Positions 14,769-45,759 of a stretch of 64,000 nucleotides of DNA are shown piece after piece. Within the stretch, counting starts at the first letter, position 1. Every line of letters begins with the position of its first letter. Made by a program: the position numbers and the translations under genes. Origin of the DNA: Phorcus lineatus (taxonomy: Eukaryota; Mollusca; Gastropoda; Trochida; Trochidae); assembly GCA_921293015.1 (NCBI GenBank), contig OV121086.1:42053402-42117401 (forward strand), written 5' to 3'. Under the pieces are notes generated by a model. That model saw only the letters and a program-made list of their open reading frames with translations. It made no database searches and had not been told where the DNA came from.

Positions 14769-16016
14769 TAACACATTGTGATGTACATTTGATGAAAGTG
14801 TGGTTTGGAAATATGCATTTTTAAGAAAGTAATCGTGCTCGGTACAACATAATGCATATTTTCGACTTAGTCTTTTTCCGCGATTTTGGTCAAAATCGGC
14901 TCTTTGTAAGTGGTTAAGCTCGAATCTGGAGCCCAAACGAAAAATCCGACTGAAAATTTGTTTTGCTCAATCGATAGAACACATTGTGATGTACATTTGA
15001 TGAAAGTTTGGTTTGGAAATATGCATTTTTAAGAAAGTTATCGTGCTCGGTACAACATAATGCATATTTTCGACTTAGTCTTTTTCCGCGATTTTGGTCA
15101 AAATCGGCTATTTGTAAGTGGTTAAGCTCGAATCTGGAGCCCAAACGAAAAATCCGACTGAAAATTTGTTTTGCTCCATCGATAGAACACATTGTGATGT
15201 ACATTTGATGAAAGTTTGGTTTGGAAATATGCAATTTTAAGAAAGTTATCGTGCTCGGTACAACATAATGCATATTTTCGACTTAGTCTTTTTCCGCGAT
15301 TTTGGTCAAAATCGGCTATTTGTAAGTGGTTAAGCTCGAATCTGGAGCCCAAACGAAAAATCCGACTGAAAATTTGTTTTGCTCCATCGATATAACACAT
15401 TGTGATGTACATTTGATGAAAGTGTGGTTTGGAAATATGCATTTTTAAGAAAGTAATCGTGCTCGGTACAACATAATGCATATTTTCGACTTAGTCTTTT
15501 TCCGCGATTTTGGTCAAAATCGGCTCTTTGTAAGTGGTTAAGCTCGAATCTGGAGCCCAAACGAAAAATCCGACTGAAAATTTGTTTTGCTCAATCGATA
15601 GAACACATTGTGATGTACATTTGATGAAAGTTTGGTTTGGAAATATGCATTTTTAAGAAAGTTATCGTGCTCGGTACAACATAATGCATATTTTCGACTT
15701 AGTCTTTTTCCGCGATTTTGGTCAAAATCGGCTATTTGTAAGTGGTTAAGCTCGAATCTGGAGCCCAAACGAAAAATCCGACTGAAAATTTGTTTTGCTC
15801 CATCGATAGAACACATTGTGATGTACATTTGATGAAAGTTTGGTTTGGAAATATGCAATTTTAAGAAAGTTATCGTGCTCGGTACAACATAATGCATATT
15901 TTCGACTTAGCCGATTTTGACCAAAATCGCGGAAAAAGACTATTTGTAAGTGGTTAAGCTCGAATCTGGAGCCCAAACGAAAAATCCGACTGAAAATTTG
16001 TTTTGCTCCATCGATA
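14769..16016 (+). repeat. 3-mer tandem duplication, 624 bp twice
   Basis: Copies 72-74 (14,769-15,392) and 75-77 (15,393-16,016) repeat the same three monomers. (1) TAACAC, GTGTGG, GTAATCG and CTCTTTG. (2) Near consensus with a CCATCGATAG end. (3) GCAATTTT with a CCATCGATAT end. The two units look identical except that the last copy of the second unit carries the 31-bp inversion. The inversion therefore arose after this duplication. Confidence 0.88.
15910..15940 (-). other. 31-bp micro-inversion within copy 77
   Basis: Where every other copy reads GTCTTTTTCC...ATCGGC (monomer positions 102-132), this copy reads GCCGATTTTGACC... through to GGAAAAAGAC. That is exactly the reverse complement of the normal segment, in place, with no bases gained or lost. 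The end bases are G and C in both orientations, so the breakpoints are ambiguous by one base on each side (29-31 bp). The segment contains the dyad of positions 113-130, but its centre (position 117) is off the dyad centre by about 4-5 bp. I see it in this copy only. It is strong evidence for a local template-switch or hairpin-associated event. Confidence 0.95.
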
Positions 16017-16224
16017 TAACACATTGTGATGTACATTTGATGAAAGTTTGGTTTGGAAATATGCATTTTTAAGAAAGTAATCGTGCTCGGTACAACATAA
16101 TGCATATTTTCGACTTAGTCTTTTTCCGCGATTTTGGTCAAAATCGGCTCTTTGTAAGTGGTTAAGCTCGAATCTGGAGCCCAAACGAAAAATCCGACTG
16201 AAAATTTGTTTTGCTCAATCGATA

Positions 16225-34527: not shown

Positions 34528-34847
34528 GAACACATTGTGATGTACATTTGATGAAAGTTTGGTTTGGAAATATGCATTTTTAAGAAAGTTATCGTGCTCG
34601 GTACAACAATATGCATATTTTCGACTTAGTCTTTTTCCGCGATTTTGGTCAAAATCGGCTATTTGTAAGTGGTTAAGCTCGAATCTGGAGCCCAAACGAA
34701 AAATCCGACTGAAAATTTGTTTTGCTCAATTGATAGAACACATTGTGATGTACATTTGATGAAAGTTTGGTTTGGAAATATGCATTTTTAAGAAAGTTAT
34801 CGTGCTCGGTACAACAATATGCATATTTTCGACTTAGTCTTTTTCCG

Positions 34848-34865
34848 CGATTTTGACCAAAATCG
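34848..34865. repeat. Dyad with reverse-complemented centre, GACC (copy 168)
   Basis: The centre reads TTTTGACCAAAA where consensus reads TTTTGGTCAAAA. Two adjacent bases (GT) are replaced by AC, which is what inverting the dyad in place would give. The same form is found at 36,720-36,737, 43,584-43,601 and 45,248-45,265, always in the Z monomer of the zone E cassette. All four therefore probably come from one event later copied with the cassette. Confidence 0.92.
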
Positions 34866-35983
34866 GCTATTTGTAAGTGGTTAAGCTCGAATCTGGAGCC
34901 CAAACGAAAAATCCGACTGAAAATTTGTTTTGCTCCATCGATAGAACACATTGTGATGTACATTTGATGAAAGTGTGGTTTGGAAATATGCATTTTTAAG
35001 AAAGTTATCGTGCTCGGTACAACAATATGCATATTTTCGACTTAGTCTTTTTCCGCGATTTTGGTCAAAATCGGCTATTTGTAAGTGGTTAAGCTCGAAT
35101 CTGGAGCCCAAACGAAAAATCCGACTGAAAATTTGTTTTGCTCAATCGATAGAACACATTGTGATGTACATTTGATGAAAGTTTGGTTTGGAAATATGTA
35201 TTTTTAAGAAAGTTATCGTGCTCGGTACAACATAATGCATATTTTCGACTTAGTCTTTTTCCGCGATTGTGGTCAAAATCGGCTATTTGTAAGTGGTTAA
35301 GCTCGACTCTGGAGCCCAAACGAAAAATCCGACTGAAAATTTGTTTTGCTCATTCAATAGAACACATTGTGATGTACATTTGATGAAAGTTTGGTTTGGA
35401 AATATGCAATTTTAAGAAAGTTATCGTGCTCGGTACAACATAATGCATATTTTCGACTTAGTCTTTTTCCGCGATTTTGGTCAAAATCGGCTATTTGTAA
35501 GTGGTTAAGCTCGAATCTGGAGCCCAAACGAAAAATCCGACTGAAAATTTGTTTTGCTCCATCGATATAACACATTGTGATGTACATTTGATGAAAGTGT
35601 GGTTTGGAAATATGCATTTTTAAGAAAGTAATCGTGCTCGGTACAACATAATGCATATTTTCGACTTAGTCTTTTTCCGCGATTTTGGTCAAAATCGGCT
35701 CTTTGTAAGTGGTTAAGCTCGAATCTGGAGCCCAAACGAAAAATCCGACTGAAAATTTGTTTTGCTCAATCGATAGAACACATTGTGATGTACATTTGAT
35801 GAAAGTTTGGTTTGGAAATATGCATTTTTAAGAAAGTTATCGTGCTCGGTACAACATAATGCATATTTTCGACTTAGTCTTTTTCCGCGATTTTGGTCAA
35901 AATCGGCTATTTGTAAGTGGTTAAGCTCGAATCTGGAGCCCAAACGAAAAATCCGACTGAAAATTTGTTTTGCTCCATCGATA

Positions 35984-37231
35984 GAACACATTGTGATGTA
36001 CATTTGATGAAAGTGTGGTTTGGAAATATGCATTTTTAAGAAAGTAATCGTGCTCGGTACAACATAATGCATATTTTCGACTTAGTCTTTTTCCGCGATT
36101 GTGGTCAAAATCGGCTATTTTTAAGTGGTTAAGCTCGAATCTGGAGCCCAAACGAAAAATCCGACTGAAAATTTGTTTTGCTCAATCGATAGAACACATT
36201 GTGATGTACATTTGATGAAAGTTTGGTTTGGAAATATGCATTTTTAAGAAAGTTATCGTGCTCGGTACAACAATATGCATATTTTCGACTTAGTCTTTTT
36301 CCGCGATTTTGGTCAAAATCGGCTATTTGTAAGTGGTTAAGCTCGAATCTGGAGCCCAAACGAAAAATCCGACTGAAAATTTGTTTTGCTCAATTGATAG
36401 AACACATTGTGATGTACATTTGATGAAAGTTTGGTTTGGAAATATGCATTTTTAAGAAAGTTATCGTGCTCGGTACAACAATATGCATATTTTCGACTTA
36501 GTCTTTTTCCGCGATTTTGGTCAAAATCGGCTATTTGTAAGTGGTTAAGCTCGAATCTGGAGCCCAAACGAAAAATCCGACTGAAAATTTGTTTTGCTCA
36601 ATTGATAGAACACATTGTGATGTACATTTGATGAAAGTTTGGTTTGGAAATATGCATTTTTAAGAAAGTTATCGTGCTCGGTACAACAATATGCATATTT
36701 TCGACTTAGTCTTTTTCCGCGATTTTGACCAAAATCGGCTATTTGTAAGTGGTTAAGCTCGAATCTGGAGCCCAAACGAAAAATCCGACTGAAAATTTGT
36801 TTTGCTCCATCGATAGAACACATTGTGATGTACATTTGATGAAAGTGTGGTTTGGAAATATGCATTTTTAAGAAAGTTATCGTGCTCGGTACAACAATAT
36901 GCATATTTTCGACTTAGTCTTTTTCCGCGATTTTGGTCAAAATCGGCTATTTGTAAGTGGTTAAGCTCGAATCTGGAGCCCAAACGAAAAATCCGACTGA
37001 AAATTTGTTTTGCTCAATCGATAGAACACATTGTGATGTACATTTGATGAAAGTTTGGTTTGGAAATATGTATTTTTAAGAAAGTTATCGTGCTCGGTAC
37101 AACATAATGCATATTTTCGACTTAGTCTTTTTCCGCGATTGTGGTCAAAATCGGCTATTTGTAAGTGGTTAAGCTCGACTCTGGAGCCCAAACGAAAAAT
37201 CCGACTGAAAATTTGTTTTGCTCATTCAATA
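35984..37231 (+). repeat. GATTGTGG/AATATGC cassette, occurrence 4 with doubled Y (six monomers)
   Basis: Order X-Y-Y-Z-W-V: the AATATGC/CAATTGATA monomer is present twice (36,192 and 36,400). The Z monomer (36,608) has the flipped GACC centre. The extra Y shows that single-monomer gain happens inside an otherwise conserved cassette. Confidence 0.86.
36720..36737. repeat. Dyad with GACC centre (copy 177)
   Basis: Same two-base flip as at 34,848-34,865, in the Z monomer of the six-monomer cassette. Confidence 0.92.
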
Positions 37232-43055: not shown

Positions 43056-44095
43056 GAACACATTGTGATGTACATTTGATGAAAGTGTGGTTTGGAAATA
43101 TGCATTTTTAAGAAAGTAATCGTGCTCGGTACAACATAATGCATATTTTCGACTTAGTCTTTTTCCGCGATTGTGGTCAAAATCGGCTATTTTTAAGTGG
43201 TTAAGCTCGAATCTGGAGCCCAAACGAAAAATCCGACTGAAAATTTGTTTTGCTCAATCGATAGAACACATTGTGATGTACATTTGATGAAAGTTTGGTT
43301 TGGAAATATGCATTTTTAAGAAAGTTATCGTGCTCGGTACAACAATATGCATATTTTCGACTTAGTCTTTTTCCGCGATTTTGGTCAAAATCGGCTATTT
43401 GTAAGTGGTTAAGCTCGAATCTGGAGCCCAAACGAAAAATCCGACTGAAAATTTGTTTTGCTCAATTGATAGAACACATTGTGATGTACATTTGATGAAA
43501 GTTTGGTTTGGAAATATGCATTTTTAAGAAAGTTATCGTGCTCGGTACAACAATATGCATATTTTCGACTTAGTCTTTTTCCGCGATTTTGACCAAAATC
43601 GGCTATTTGTAAGTGGTTAAGCTCGAATCTGGAGCCCAAACGAAAAATCCGACTGAAAATTTGTTTTGCTCCATCGATAGAACACATTGTGATGTACATT
43701 TGATGAAAGTGTGGTTTGGAAATATGCATTTTTAAGAAAGTTATCGTGCTCGGTACAACAATATGCATATTTTCGACTTAGTCTTTTTCCGCGATTTTGG
43801 TCAAAATCGGCTATTTGTAAGTGGTTAAGCTCGAATCTGGAGCCCAAACGAAAAATCCGACTGAAAATTTGTTTTGCTCAATCGATAGAACACATTGTGA
43901 TGTACATTTGATGAAAGTTTGGTTTGGAAATATGTATTTTTAAGAAAGTTATCGTGCTCGGTACAACATAATGCATATTTTCGACTTAGTCTTTTTCCGC
44001 GATTGTGGTCAAAATCGGCTATTTGTAAGTGGTTAAGCTCGACTCTGGAGCCCAAACGAAAAATCCGACTGAAAATTTGTTTTGCTCATTCAATA
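43056..44095 (+). repeat. GATTGTGG/AATATGC cassette, occurrence 6
   Basis: Order X-Y-Z-W-V, with the GACC centre in Z at 43,591-43,594. It pairs with occurrence 3, but the X monomer here is the full 208 bp. The 1-bp loss in occurrence 3 is therefore younger than the long duplication, or is an assembly error. Confidence 0.86.
43584..43601. repeat. Dyad with GACC centre (copy 210)
   Basis: Same two-base flip, in the Z monomer of cassette occurrence 6. It is the direct partner of the copy at 34,848 in the long duplication. Confidence 0.92.
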
Positions 44096-44719: not shown

Positions 44720-45759
44720 GAACACATTGTGATGTACATTTGATGAAAGTGTGGTTTGGAAATATGCATTTTTAAGAAAGTAATCGTGCTCGGTACAACA
44801 TAATGCATATTTTCGACTTAGTCTTTTTCCGCGATTGTGGTCAAAATCGGCTATTTTTAAGTGGTTAAGCTCGAATCTGGAGCCCAAACGAAAAATCCGA
44901 CTGAAAATTTGTTTTGCTCAATCGATAGAACACATTGTGATGTACATTTGATGAAAGTTTGGTTTGGAAATATGCATTTTTAAGAAAGTTATCGTGCTCG
45001 GTACAACAATATGCATATTTTCGACTTAGTCTTTTTCCGCGATTTTGGTCAAAATCGGCTATTTGTAAGTGGTTAAGCTCGAATCTGGAGCCCAAACGAA
45101 AAATCCGACTGAAAATTTGTTTTGCTCAATCGATAGAACACATTGTGATGTACATTTGATGAAAGTTTGGTTTGGAAATATGCATTTTTAAGAAAGTTAT
45201 CGTGCTCGGTACAACAATATGCATATTTTCGACTTAGTCTTTTTCCGCGATTTTGACCAAAATCGGCTATTTGTAAGTGGTTAAGCTCGAATCTGGAGCC
45301 CAAACGAAAAATCCGACTGAAAATTTGTTTTGCTCCATCGATAGAACACATTGTGATGTACATTTGATGAAAGTGTGGTTTGGAAATATGCATTTTTAAG
45401 AAAGTTATCGTGCTCGGTACAACAATATGCATATTTTCGACTTAGTCTTTTTCCGCGATTTTGGTCAAAATCGGCTATTTGTAAGTGGTTAAGCTCGAAT
45501 CTGGAGCCCAAACGAAAAATCCGACTGAAAATTTGTTTTGCTCAATCGATAGAACACATTGTGATGTACATTTGATGAAAGTTTGGTTTGGAAATATGTA
45601 TTTTTAAGAAAGTTATCGTGCTCGGTACAACATAATGCATATTTTCGACTTAGTCTTTTTCCGCGATTGTGGTCAAAATCGGCTATTTGTAAGTGGTTAA
45701 GCTCGACTCTGGAGCCCAAACGAAAAATCCGACTGAAAATTTGTTTTGCTCATTCAATA
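44720..45759 (+). repeat. GATTGTGG/AATATGC cassette, occurrence 7
   Basis: Order X-Y-Z-W-V, with the GACC centre in Z at 45,255-45,258. Its Y monomer ends CAATCGATA where the other six have CAATTGATA, so it has lost or never had that change. It is separated from occurrence 6 by only three monomers. Confidence 0.84.
45248..45265. repeat. Dyad with GACC centre (copy 218)
   Basis: Same two-base flip, in the Z monomer of cassette occurrence 7. Confidence 0.92.

Follow-up and report, generated by a model that had tools for sequence, protein, structure and literature searches.

A 31-bp inversion with identical ends in four arrays of a 208-bp satellite of Phorcus lineatus

The window analyzed here, a stretch of 64,000 nucleotides (C11:42053402-42117401), is a single array of a 208-bp satellite with 307.7 copies and 97% matches. 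In one of its approximately 308 units of 208 bp, the normal core is replaced by its exact reverse complement at positions 15910-15940. On the + strand, the window contains the normal 31-mer 264 times and a single reverse complement of it, at 15910. Compared with the consensus, the copy beginning at 15814 has 20 mismatches, of which reverse-complementing unit positions (idx) 97-125 removes 17; the next best window copy gains 2 in the same test. Since its remaining 177 bases, outside the core, are identical to those of 20 unflipped window copies, the flip is not a chance resemblance. The 31-mer counts and the mismatch gain bear out the initial annotation, which had described an exact 31-bp reverse complement, single in the window, with flanks and length intact. 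Both of its junction words lie where it had placed them, at 15905 and 15935, with one occurrence each. The features are as follows.

15814..16021, + strand: 208-bp monomer carrying the inversion (copy 76), with 177 non-core bases equal to those of 20 unflipped copies
15910..15940, - strand: 31-bp inverted segment (minimal 15911-15939, maximal 15908-15942), with 17 mismatches removed by flipping
15908..15910, + strand: left microhomology TAG, with its partner the nearest inverted repeat of at least 3 bp enclosing the dyad in the consensus
15940..15942, + strand: right microhomology CTA, partner of the left TAG
15912..15929, no strand: 18-bp dyad with 8-bp arms and a 2-bp spacer, AC here and GT in normal copies
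15190..15397, + strand: sister copy 73, with identical flanks and a normal core (comparison outside the core)
34856..34857, no strand: spacer turned from GT into AC in the copy starting at 34741; also at 36728-36729, 43592-43593, and 45256-45257

Normal copies read CTTAG...GGCTATT, and the flipped copy has CTTAG at its left end and CTATT at its right end. Because TAG and CTA form a 3-bp inverted repeat, the ends are ambiguous and the change may be 29, 31, 33, or 35 bp long, a correction to the single placement at 15910 and 15940 proposed earlier. Inside the flipped segment lies the dyad CGATTTTG-GT-CAAAATCG; the unit has no other inverted repeat whose arms reach 6 bp and whose spacer is no longer than 14. 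The segment had been said to span this dyad off-center, and the two centers are indeed 4.5 bp apart. It also holds that a flip about the dyad center would not give these ends, as it would only turn the 2-bp spacer GT into AC. When arms of 3 bp or more and a spacer of 15-60 are required, the C11 consensus contains 161 inverted-repeat pairs, and TAG/CTA is the tightest of the 17 that enclose the dyad.

Folded as single-stranded DNA, the normal core is predicted to form a hairpin at -5 kcal/mol, matched by 10 of 200 shuffles (z -1.7), and the inverted core one at -4.6 kcal/mol, matched by 16 of 200. For the whole unit, the z of the fold is -0.8, and by these predictions neither the hairpin of the normal core nor the whole-unit fold appears exceptional. 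In the common core of the C19 array, the dyad arms are interrupted by GAATTT, and the best fold reaches -1.4 kcal/mol, with 144 of 200 shuffles as good. A subfamily at C7:6.26 Mb (sample L040) has lost the right dyad arm (GCTCCCAAATGGC), and a diverged relative of the satellite core at C32:31.27 Mb (L050) has a palindromic center, CCATTTTGACCAAATTGG.

The flipped copy lies in a run of 3-mer units (copies 70-72, 73-75, and 76-78). Outside the core, copies 73-75 equal 70-72 exactly; copy 76 differs from copy 73 at 0 of 177 bases, copy 77 from 74 at one, and copy 78 from 75 at three. The sister unit had been described as lacking the flip, and copy 73 does have a normal core between flanks identical to those of copy 76. 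As the sister copies are near-identical outside the core and do not carry the flip, it is probably young and later than the 3-mer duplication, unless conversion restored a sister afterwards. The comparison of copies 70-78 outside the core thus supports the relative date given in the initial annotation.

Anchor matches of the satellite family number at least 59,172 across the genome (29,691 + 29,481; up to 3 mismatches), which as regards a centromeric role indicate abundance only. In the 74 contigs of the assembly (957.8 Mb), exact junction searches, together with the reading of individual arrays, identified 23 copies of the full 31-bp inversion with identical ends, in four arrays. C11 has one, the window copy, and C13 has one, at 7232642. 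Six are on C39 (33693461, 33700949, 33740666, 33744202, 33745242, and 33746074), including two with GTC in place of GAC near the right end, one of which has one more change, and 15 are on C19, between 37830360 and 37900066. We read 21 of the 23 in sequence; C19:37881849 and C19:37885801 (left junctions) were identified by both junctions alone. In the window and in the other arrays, the changed segments are longer than 15 nt and are exact or near-exact reverse complements of the ancestral segment, as is typical of microinversions, and the window copy, with an exact core and 0 of 177 flank differences, has no sign of any other mutation at birth.

If flipped, 982 of 1093 unflipped monomers from 12 samples would match either junction pattern; the census misses some subfamilies, with 0 of 46 monomers detectable on C7 and 7 of 42 on C9. 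The 12-mer proposed for searching in the initial annotation occurs 53 times in the assembly, compared with 48 times for a control, so it is mostly background, and it was its clusters, with spacings mostly multiples of 208, that pointed to C39. A 48-base search with up to 3 mismatches returned the window copy only and suggested a private event; this was wrong, as the flanks of the other arrays differ. All counts are based on exact searches, as mismatch-tolerant lists omitted C39 places that the exact ones show. A literature search with a 19-base word of the satellite gave no match.

Some listed places were not counted. From one exact junction list (37 places), these were C11:41275852 and C16:25227134, which are not satellite, three on C5 whose sequence was not read, and seven + strand places on C19 (five of them in stretches that were read) that are normal units on the opposite strand with a variant flank. 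From the other exact junction list (19 places), we left out C12:32558600, which was not read, and C39:33742807 and C19:37888894, which are by-products. The 53-place list contributed 13 places at C19:2.0 Mb and two on C22 that were judged normal from the listed letters, two on C32 that belong to the diverged relative (one read), and others outside known arrays, e.g., on C1 and C25. Six places at C19:36.94-36.99 Mb in a 34-place list have an inverted dyad center behind a normal left part and were likewise not counted; they may be spacer flips or palindromes.

The position of the inversion was compared with all others by scanning 1114 monomers of 208 bp from 12 samples, part of which were chosen for holding the junction, for an in-place inversion anywhere, using the array consensus and eight common sequences as references. 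Gains of 15-17 were found only at idx 97-125, and no gain exceeded 5 at any other position among these monomers. The other signals, one 5-bp match on C7 (gain 5) and a 3-bp pattern at 7.65 Mb on C19 (gain 3, 24 copies), were taken as chance. The scan output of 13 for C13 is an artefact, as the flipped copy was among the references and 12 normal neighbors were scored; the true count is 1. Samples outside the window that were not picked for the junction (L013, L014, and L040-L047) contained no large inversion. Assembly lists, partly read, were also searched for an inverted dyad center at most 30 bases from ACTTAG or ACTCAG, without a clear case of an inversion whose left end differs. As the genome searches were designed around these junctions, the exclusion of other ends covers only the 1114 monomers and products with an intact ACTTAG/ACTCAG left flank.

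The longest inverted repeat of the unit, with 11-bp arms AAATATGCATT/AATGCATATTT and a 31-nt spacer (idx 35-45 and 77-87 of the C11 consensus), served as an internal control. An exact-junction search found 0 flips of this repeat in the assembly; such flips would be detectable in 619 of 1093 units, whereas the test junctions would detect 982 of 1093. The test events number only about four, and the difference between control and test is weak evidence.

Outside the core, the 21 flips that were read have 0-4 mismatches in 177 bases to normal copies of their own array. Their distances to normal copies of the other five sampled arrays are larger (at least 11 for C11, 10 for C39, 5 for C19, and 5 for C13). 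Flipped cores also carry local letters in two arrays. Among the 13 C19 copies whose flipped core was read, seven match the commonest local core (52 copies, GAATTT...CAGC) in reverse complement, five derive from a core seen 7 times, and one derives from a core seen 17 times. The C13 flipped core is the reverse complement of the local AATAAGC variant, which occurs in 2 of 12 normal copies and in 14 of 47 in a neighboring sample. C11 and C39 have the same flipped core letters and are distinguished by their flanks only. In a flank tree of 140 rows (21 flipped and 119 normal; quick search, SH-aLRT support only), a branch with a support of 99 splits the C11 copy from the other three groups, and the C13 flipped copy is identical to one C13 normal copy. 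With the flipped groups taken by themselves, the C19 flips need one change (support 82) and the C39 flips one (93). Over all rows, the minimum between flipped and normal is 11 changes, and several of these fall in arrays whose flipped and normal copies share one flank. Given these local flanks and the local core variants in C13 and C19, the sequence comparisons point to at least three, and probably four, independent origins, followed by local spread within C39 and C19. With the same-ended inversion present in three further arrays on other contigs, each time in the local background, the change looks like a recurrent event at a preferred site rather than a one-off.

C39 and C19 also contain by-products with cores of other lengths. 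On C39, there is a 40-bp palindromic core (33742954) and two 22-bp palindromic cores (33741697, with a one-base variant, and another with its left junction at 33738079); on C19, there is a 41-bp core (37889042) and a 33-bp core (37904020). The center of the 40- and 22-bp cores reads AC; therefore, one of the two strand changes fell within an 8-bp dyad arm, and TAG or CTA was the site of the second. The junction of the 41-bp core is at AGC, like that of a local TTTTTCAGCG variant (10 copies), and in the 33-bp core the return lies within a run of A. The flanks of the two tabulated C39 units are 0 and 1 mismatch from local normal copies, and that of the 33-bp unit is 0 from C19 normal copies; the 41-bp unit is 3 mismatches from C19 and 3 from C13 normal copies. 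The by-products may have arisen directly, by alternative switches, or in C39 by recombination between flipped and normal copies, which could also give the 40- and 22-bp cores.

The smaller change expected of a flip about the dyad center is present as well. The spacer reads AC instead of GT in four window copies (34741-34948, 36613-36820, 43477-43684, and 45141-45348), elsewhere in C11, and, with other flanks, on C9 and C40. This is exactly what a dyad-center flip gives, and two transitions would explain it as well; GATC intermediates are present twice in the window. A cluster at C19:7.90-8.01 Mb (GCCGATTTCC...) was excluded from the flips, as it may reflect a partial switch or point changes and an intermediate, GCCGTTTT, exists. 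At C19:7.90-7.94 Mb (L010 and L016), a subset of monomers has GCCGATTT at the left end of the core, complementary to the right end. Pairs of copies with an inverted dyad center are spaced 10,192 bp (49 units) apart both on C9 (5907087/5917279) and on C11 (41985274/41995466). The equal spacing had suggested a satellite block common to C9 and C11; this was rejected, as an ungapped comparison gave 869 mismatches in 4987, no better than shifted controls.

We favor, with a probability of roughly 0.75, a microinversion produced when microhomology drove a template switch onto the complementary strand, with a DNA break or fork stalling at the dyad as the probable trigger. The sole short-spacer dyad of the monomer would stall the fork or break. 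A free 3' end in TAG would then pair with the inverted copy across the dyad, on the sister strand or the sister chromatid, and synthesis would run back through the segment as far as the left end. The new CTA end would re-pair with the original template and normal synthesis would resume, with flanks and length kept. The nearest inverted microhomology around the dyad is proposed to set the ends, which would explain both the off-center position of the inversion and the recurrence of the same ends. The full flips, the by-products, and the spacer flips can all be explained by jumps between complementary stretches near the dyad, as expected of template switching at a quasi-palindrome. An opposite-strand template switch, within a fork or during break repair, had already been suggested for the window copy and is in outline still the best reading; the recurrence in other arrays was beyond the view of that suggestion.

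Several observations count against this reading. The flanking microhomology is just 3 bp (TAG/CTA in C11, C13, and C39) and 2 bp in C19 (AG...CT); the dyad is weaker in the common C19 core, yet C19 has the most flips; and the predicted folds of the normal core and of the whole unit are unremarkable. The exact flip, its ends, its presence in four arrays, and the local source of the flipped letters in C13 and C19 are seen in the sequences, whereas a part played by the dyad, an initial break or fork stalling, and the succession of jumps are inferred. With 3 nt (2 in C19) of microhomology and a dyad where a break or stalled fork is plausible, our analysis slightly favors the break-initiated form over a fork switch, two forms that leave the same sequence scar. 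The small dyad appears to be a site where copying or break repair repeatedly errs in the same way.

A single ancient inversion could instead have moved from chromosome to chromosome through gene conversion or exchange. Inside C39 (6 copies) and C19 (15), the flips are most simply read as local spread, the flipped core letters of C11 and C39 are equal, and the C13 and C19 arrays are closely related, with consensuses 8 differences apart. We nevertheless consider one ancient origin unlikely, given the local flanks in every array, the local core variants in C13 and C19, and the position of the C11 copy across the SH-aLRT 99 branch from the other three groups. Conversion between C11 and C39 would have to act through a tract of about 45 bp that pairs on few bases, as the closest differences between the two consensuses are 10 and 4 bases away from the core. 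A pair of breaks at a distance of 31 bp, followed by end joining of the fragment in reverse orientation, is quite improbable, too. This route would require two close breaks with the same ends each time, it does not alone give the 22-, 33-, 40-, and 41-bp by-products, and it is rejected as unlikely in the available part of PMC8755829, even though length and flanks would likewise be unchanged and a 2-3 bp microhomology might be used.

The identical ends in four arrays, with TA on both sides in three of the four, are what a site-specific enzyme (a recombinase or transposase-derived protein) using TA-flanked ends might produce. Such an enzyme would act at a defined end motif and give full flips only. 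In C19, however, the left end is CA in flipped and normal copies alike, the by-products have other ends, and the segment would be too short and stiff to loop for synapsis, an argument made in the available part of PMC8755829. We regard inversion by an enzyme as highly improbable. That the flipped copy is single in the window could suggest an assembly or polishing artefact. Polishing errors, however, are not usually exact 31-bp reverse complements with intact flanks, and the same-ended change is present in three other arrays, in 15 and 6 copies in two of them and with local variants inside. The worry about an artefact is thus much reduced for the window copy, and we give this explanation hardly any credence.

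It is conceivable, at somewhat less than even odds, that the dyad extrudes a hairpin or cruciform in the germline with a frequency sufficient to break or stall forks at the same base pairs across several chromosomes, with the 31-bp flip as the scar. Cruciform formation by satellite dyads at centromeres has been proposed; to our knowledge, mutation-scar evidence for centromeric satellite cruciforms is scarce. A recurrent flip with the same ends would be a countable, datable scar of one event class at a defined dyad, in a genome that offers natural replicates in the tens of thousands, and it suggests a split rule in which the dyad fixes the place and the nearest inverted microhomology fixes the ends. 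Were germline extrusion the correct reading, dyad-induced template switches could be counted in nature across the at least 59,000 related copies, and the 3-bp microhomology that most closely encloses the dyad would fix their ends.

As far as our searches go, the mutation class (microinversion) is known and its recurrence in separate arrays of one genome is new; titles and abstract openings of the open literature, a scope that mostly leaves out subscription journals, contained no report of a recurrent same-ended microinversion in a satellite. Small inversions of chloroplast DNA are flanked by longer stems. According to the available part of PMC2903610, such inversions are frequent, linked to palindromes, and found in multiple lineages, a similarity to the satellite flips, though they occur in organelle DNA. 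Loop inversions in RNA genes, in the part of PMC8794818 available, are in-place flips that are likewise read as an inter-strand switch, unlike the present case in that the loops are typically 4 and at most 7-8 nt long. The yeast inverted-repeat case of PMC8604942, in its available part, involves inversion of the spacer via an intermolecular template switch, with a switch to the other strand and back and a reported reoccurrence of events. There, however, 2-5 bp spacer substitutions lie inside arms of more than 9 bp, whereas the satellite dyad lies within the flipped piece, between outer arms of 2-3 bp. The available parts of PMC8604942 and PMC8794818 together support inter-strand switching as a cause of in-place flips.

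The available part of PMC8755829 describes 59 human-chimpanzee microinversions of 17-33 nt, all bounded by inverted repeats, eight of which have 3 nt only. Its authors find two polymerase jumps within 3-4 nt hard to imagine, and the shortest repeats are held there to be better fit by microhomology-mediated break-induced replication of a break inside the segment. The satellite flips resemble these microinversions in size and in being mostly exact reverse-complement copies; the inverted repeats at the edges, down to 3 nt in the human-chimpanzee cases, have 3 nt in C11, C13, and C39 and 2 nt in C19. Those cases are at separate loci and the word stem "recurren" is absent from the main text of that paper, whereas here one breakpoint pair is used in four arrays, in tandem repeats that let recurrence be seen as replicate experiments.
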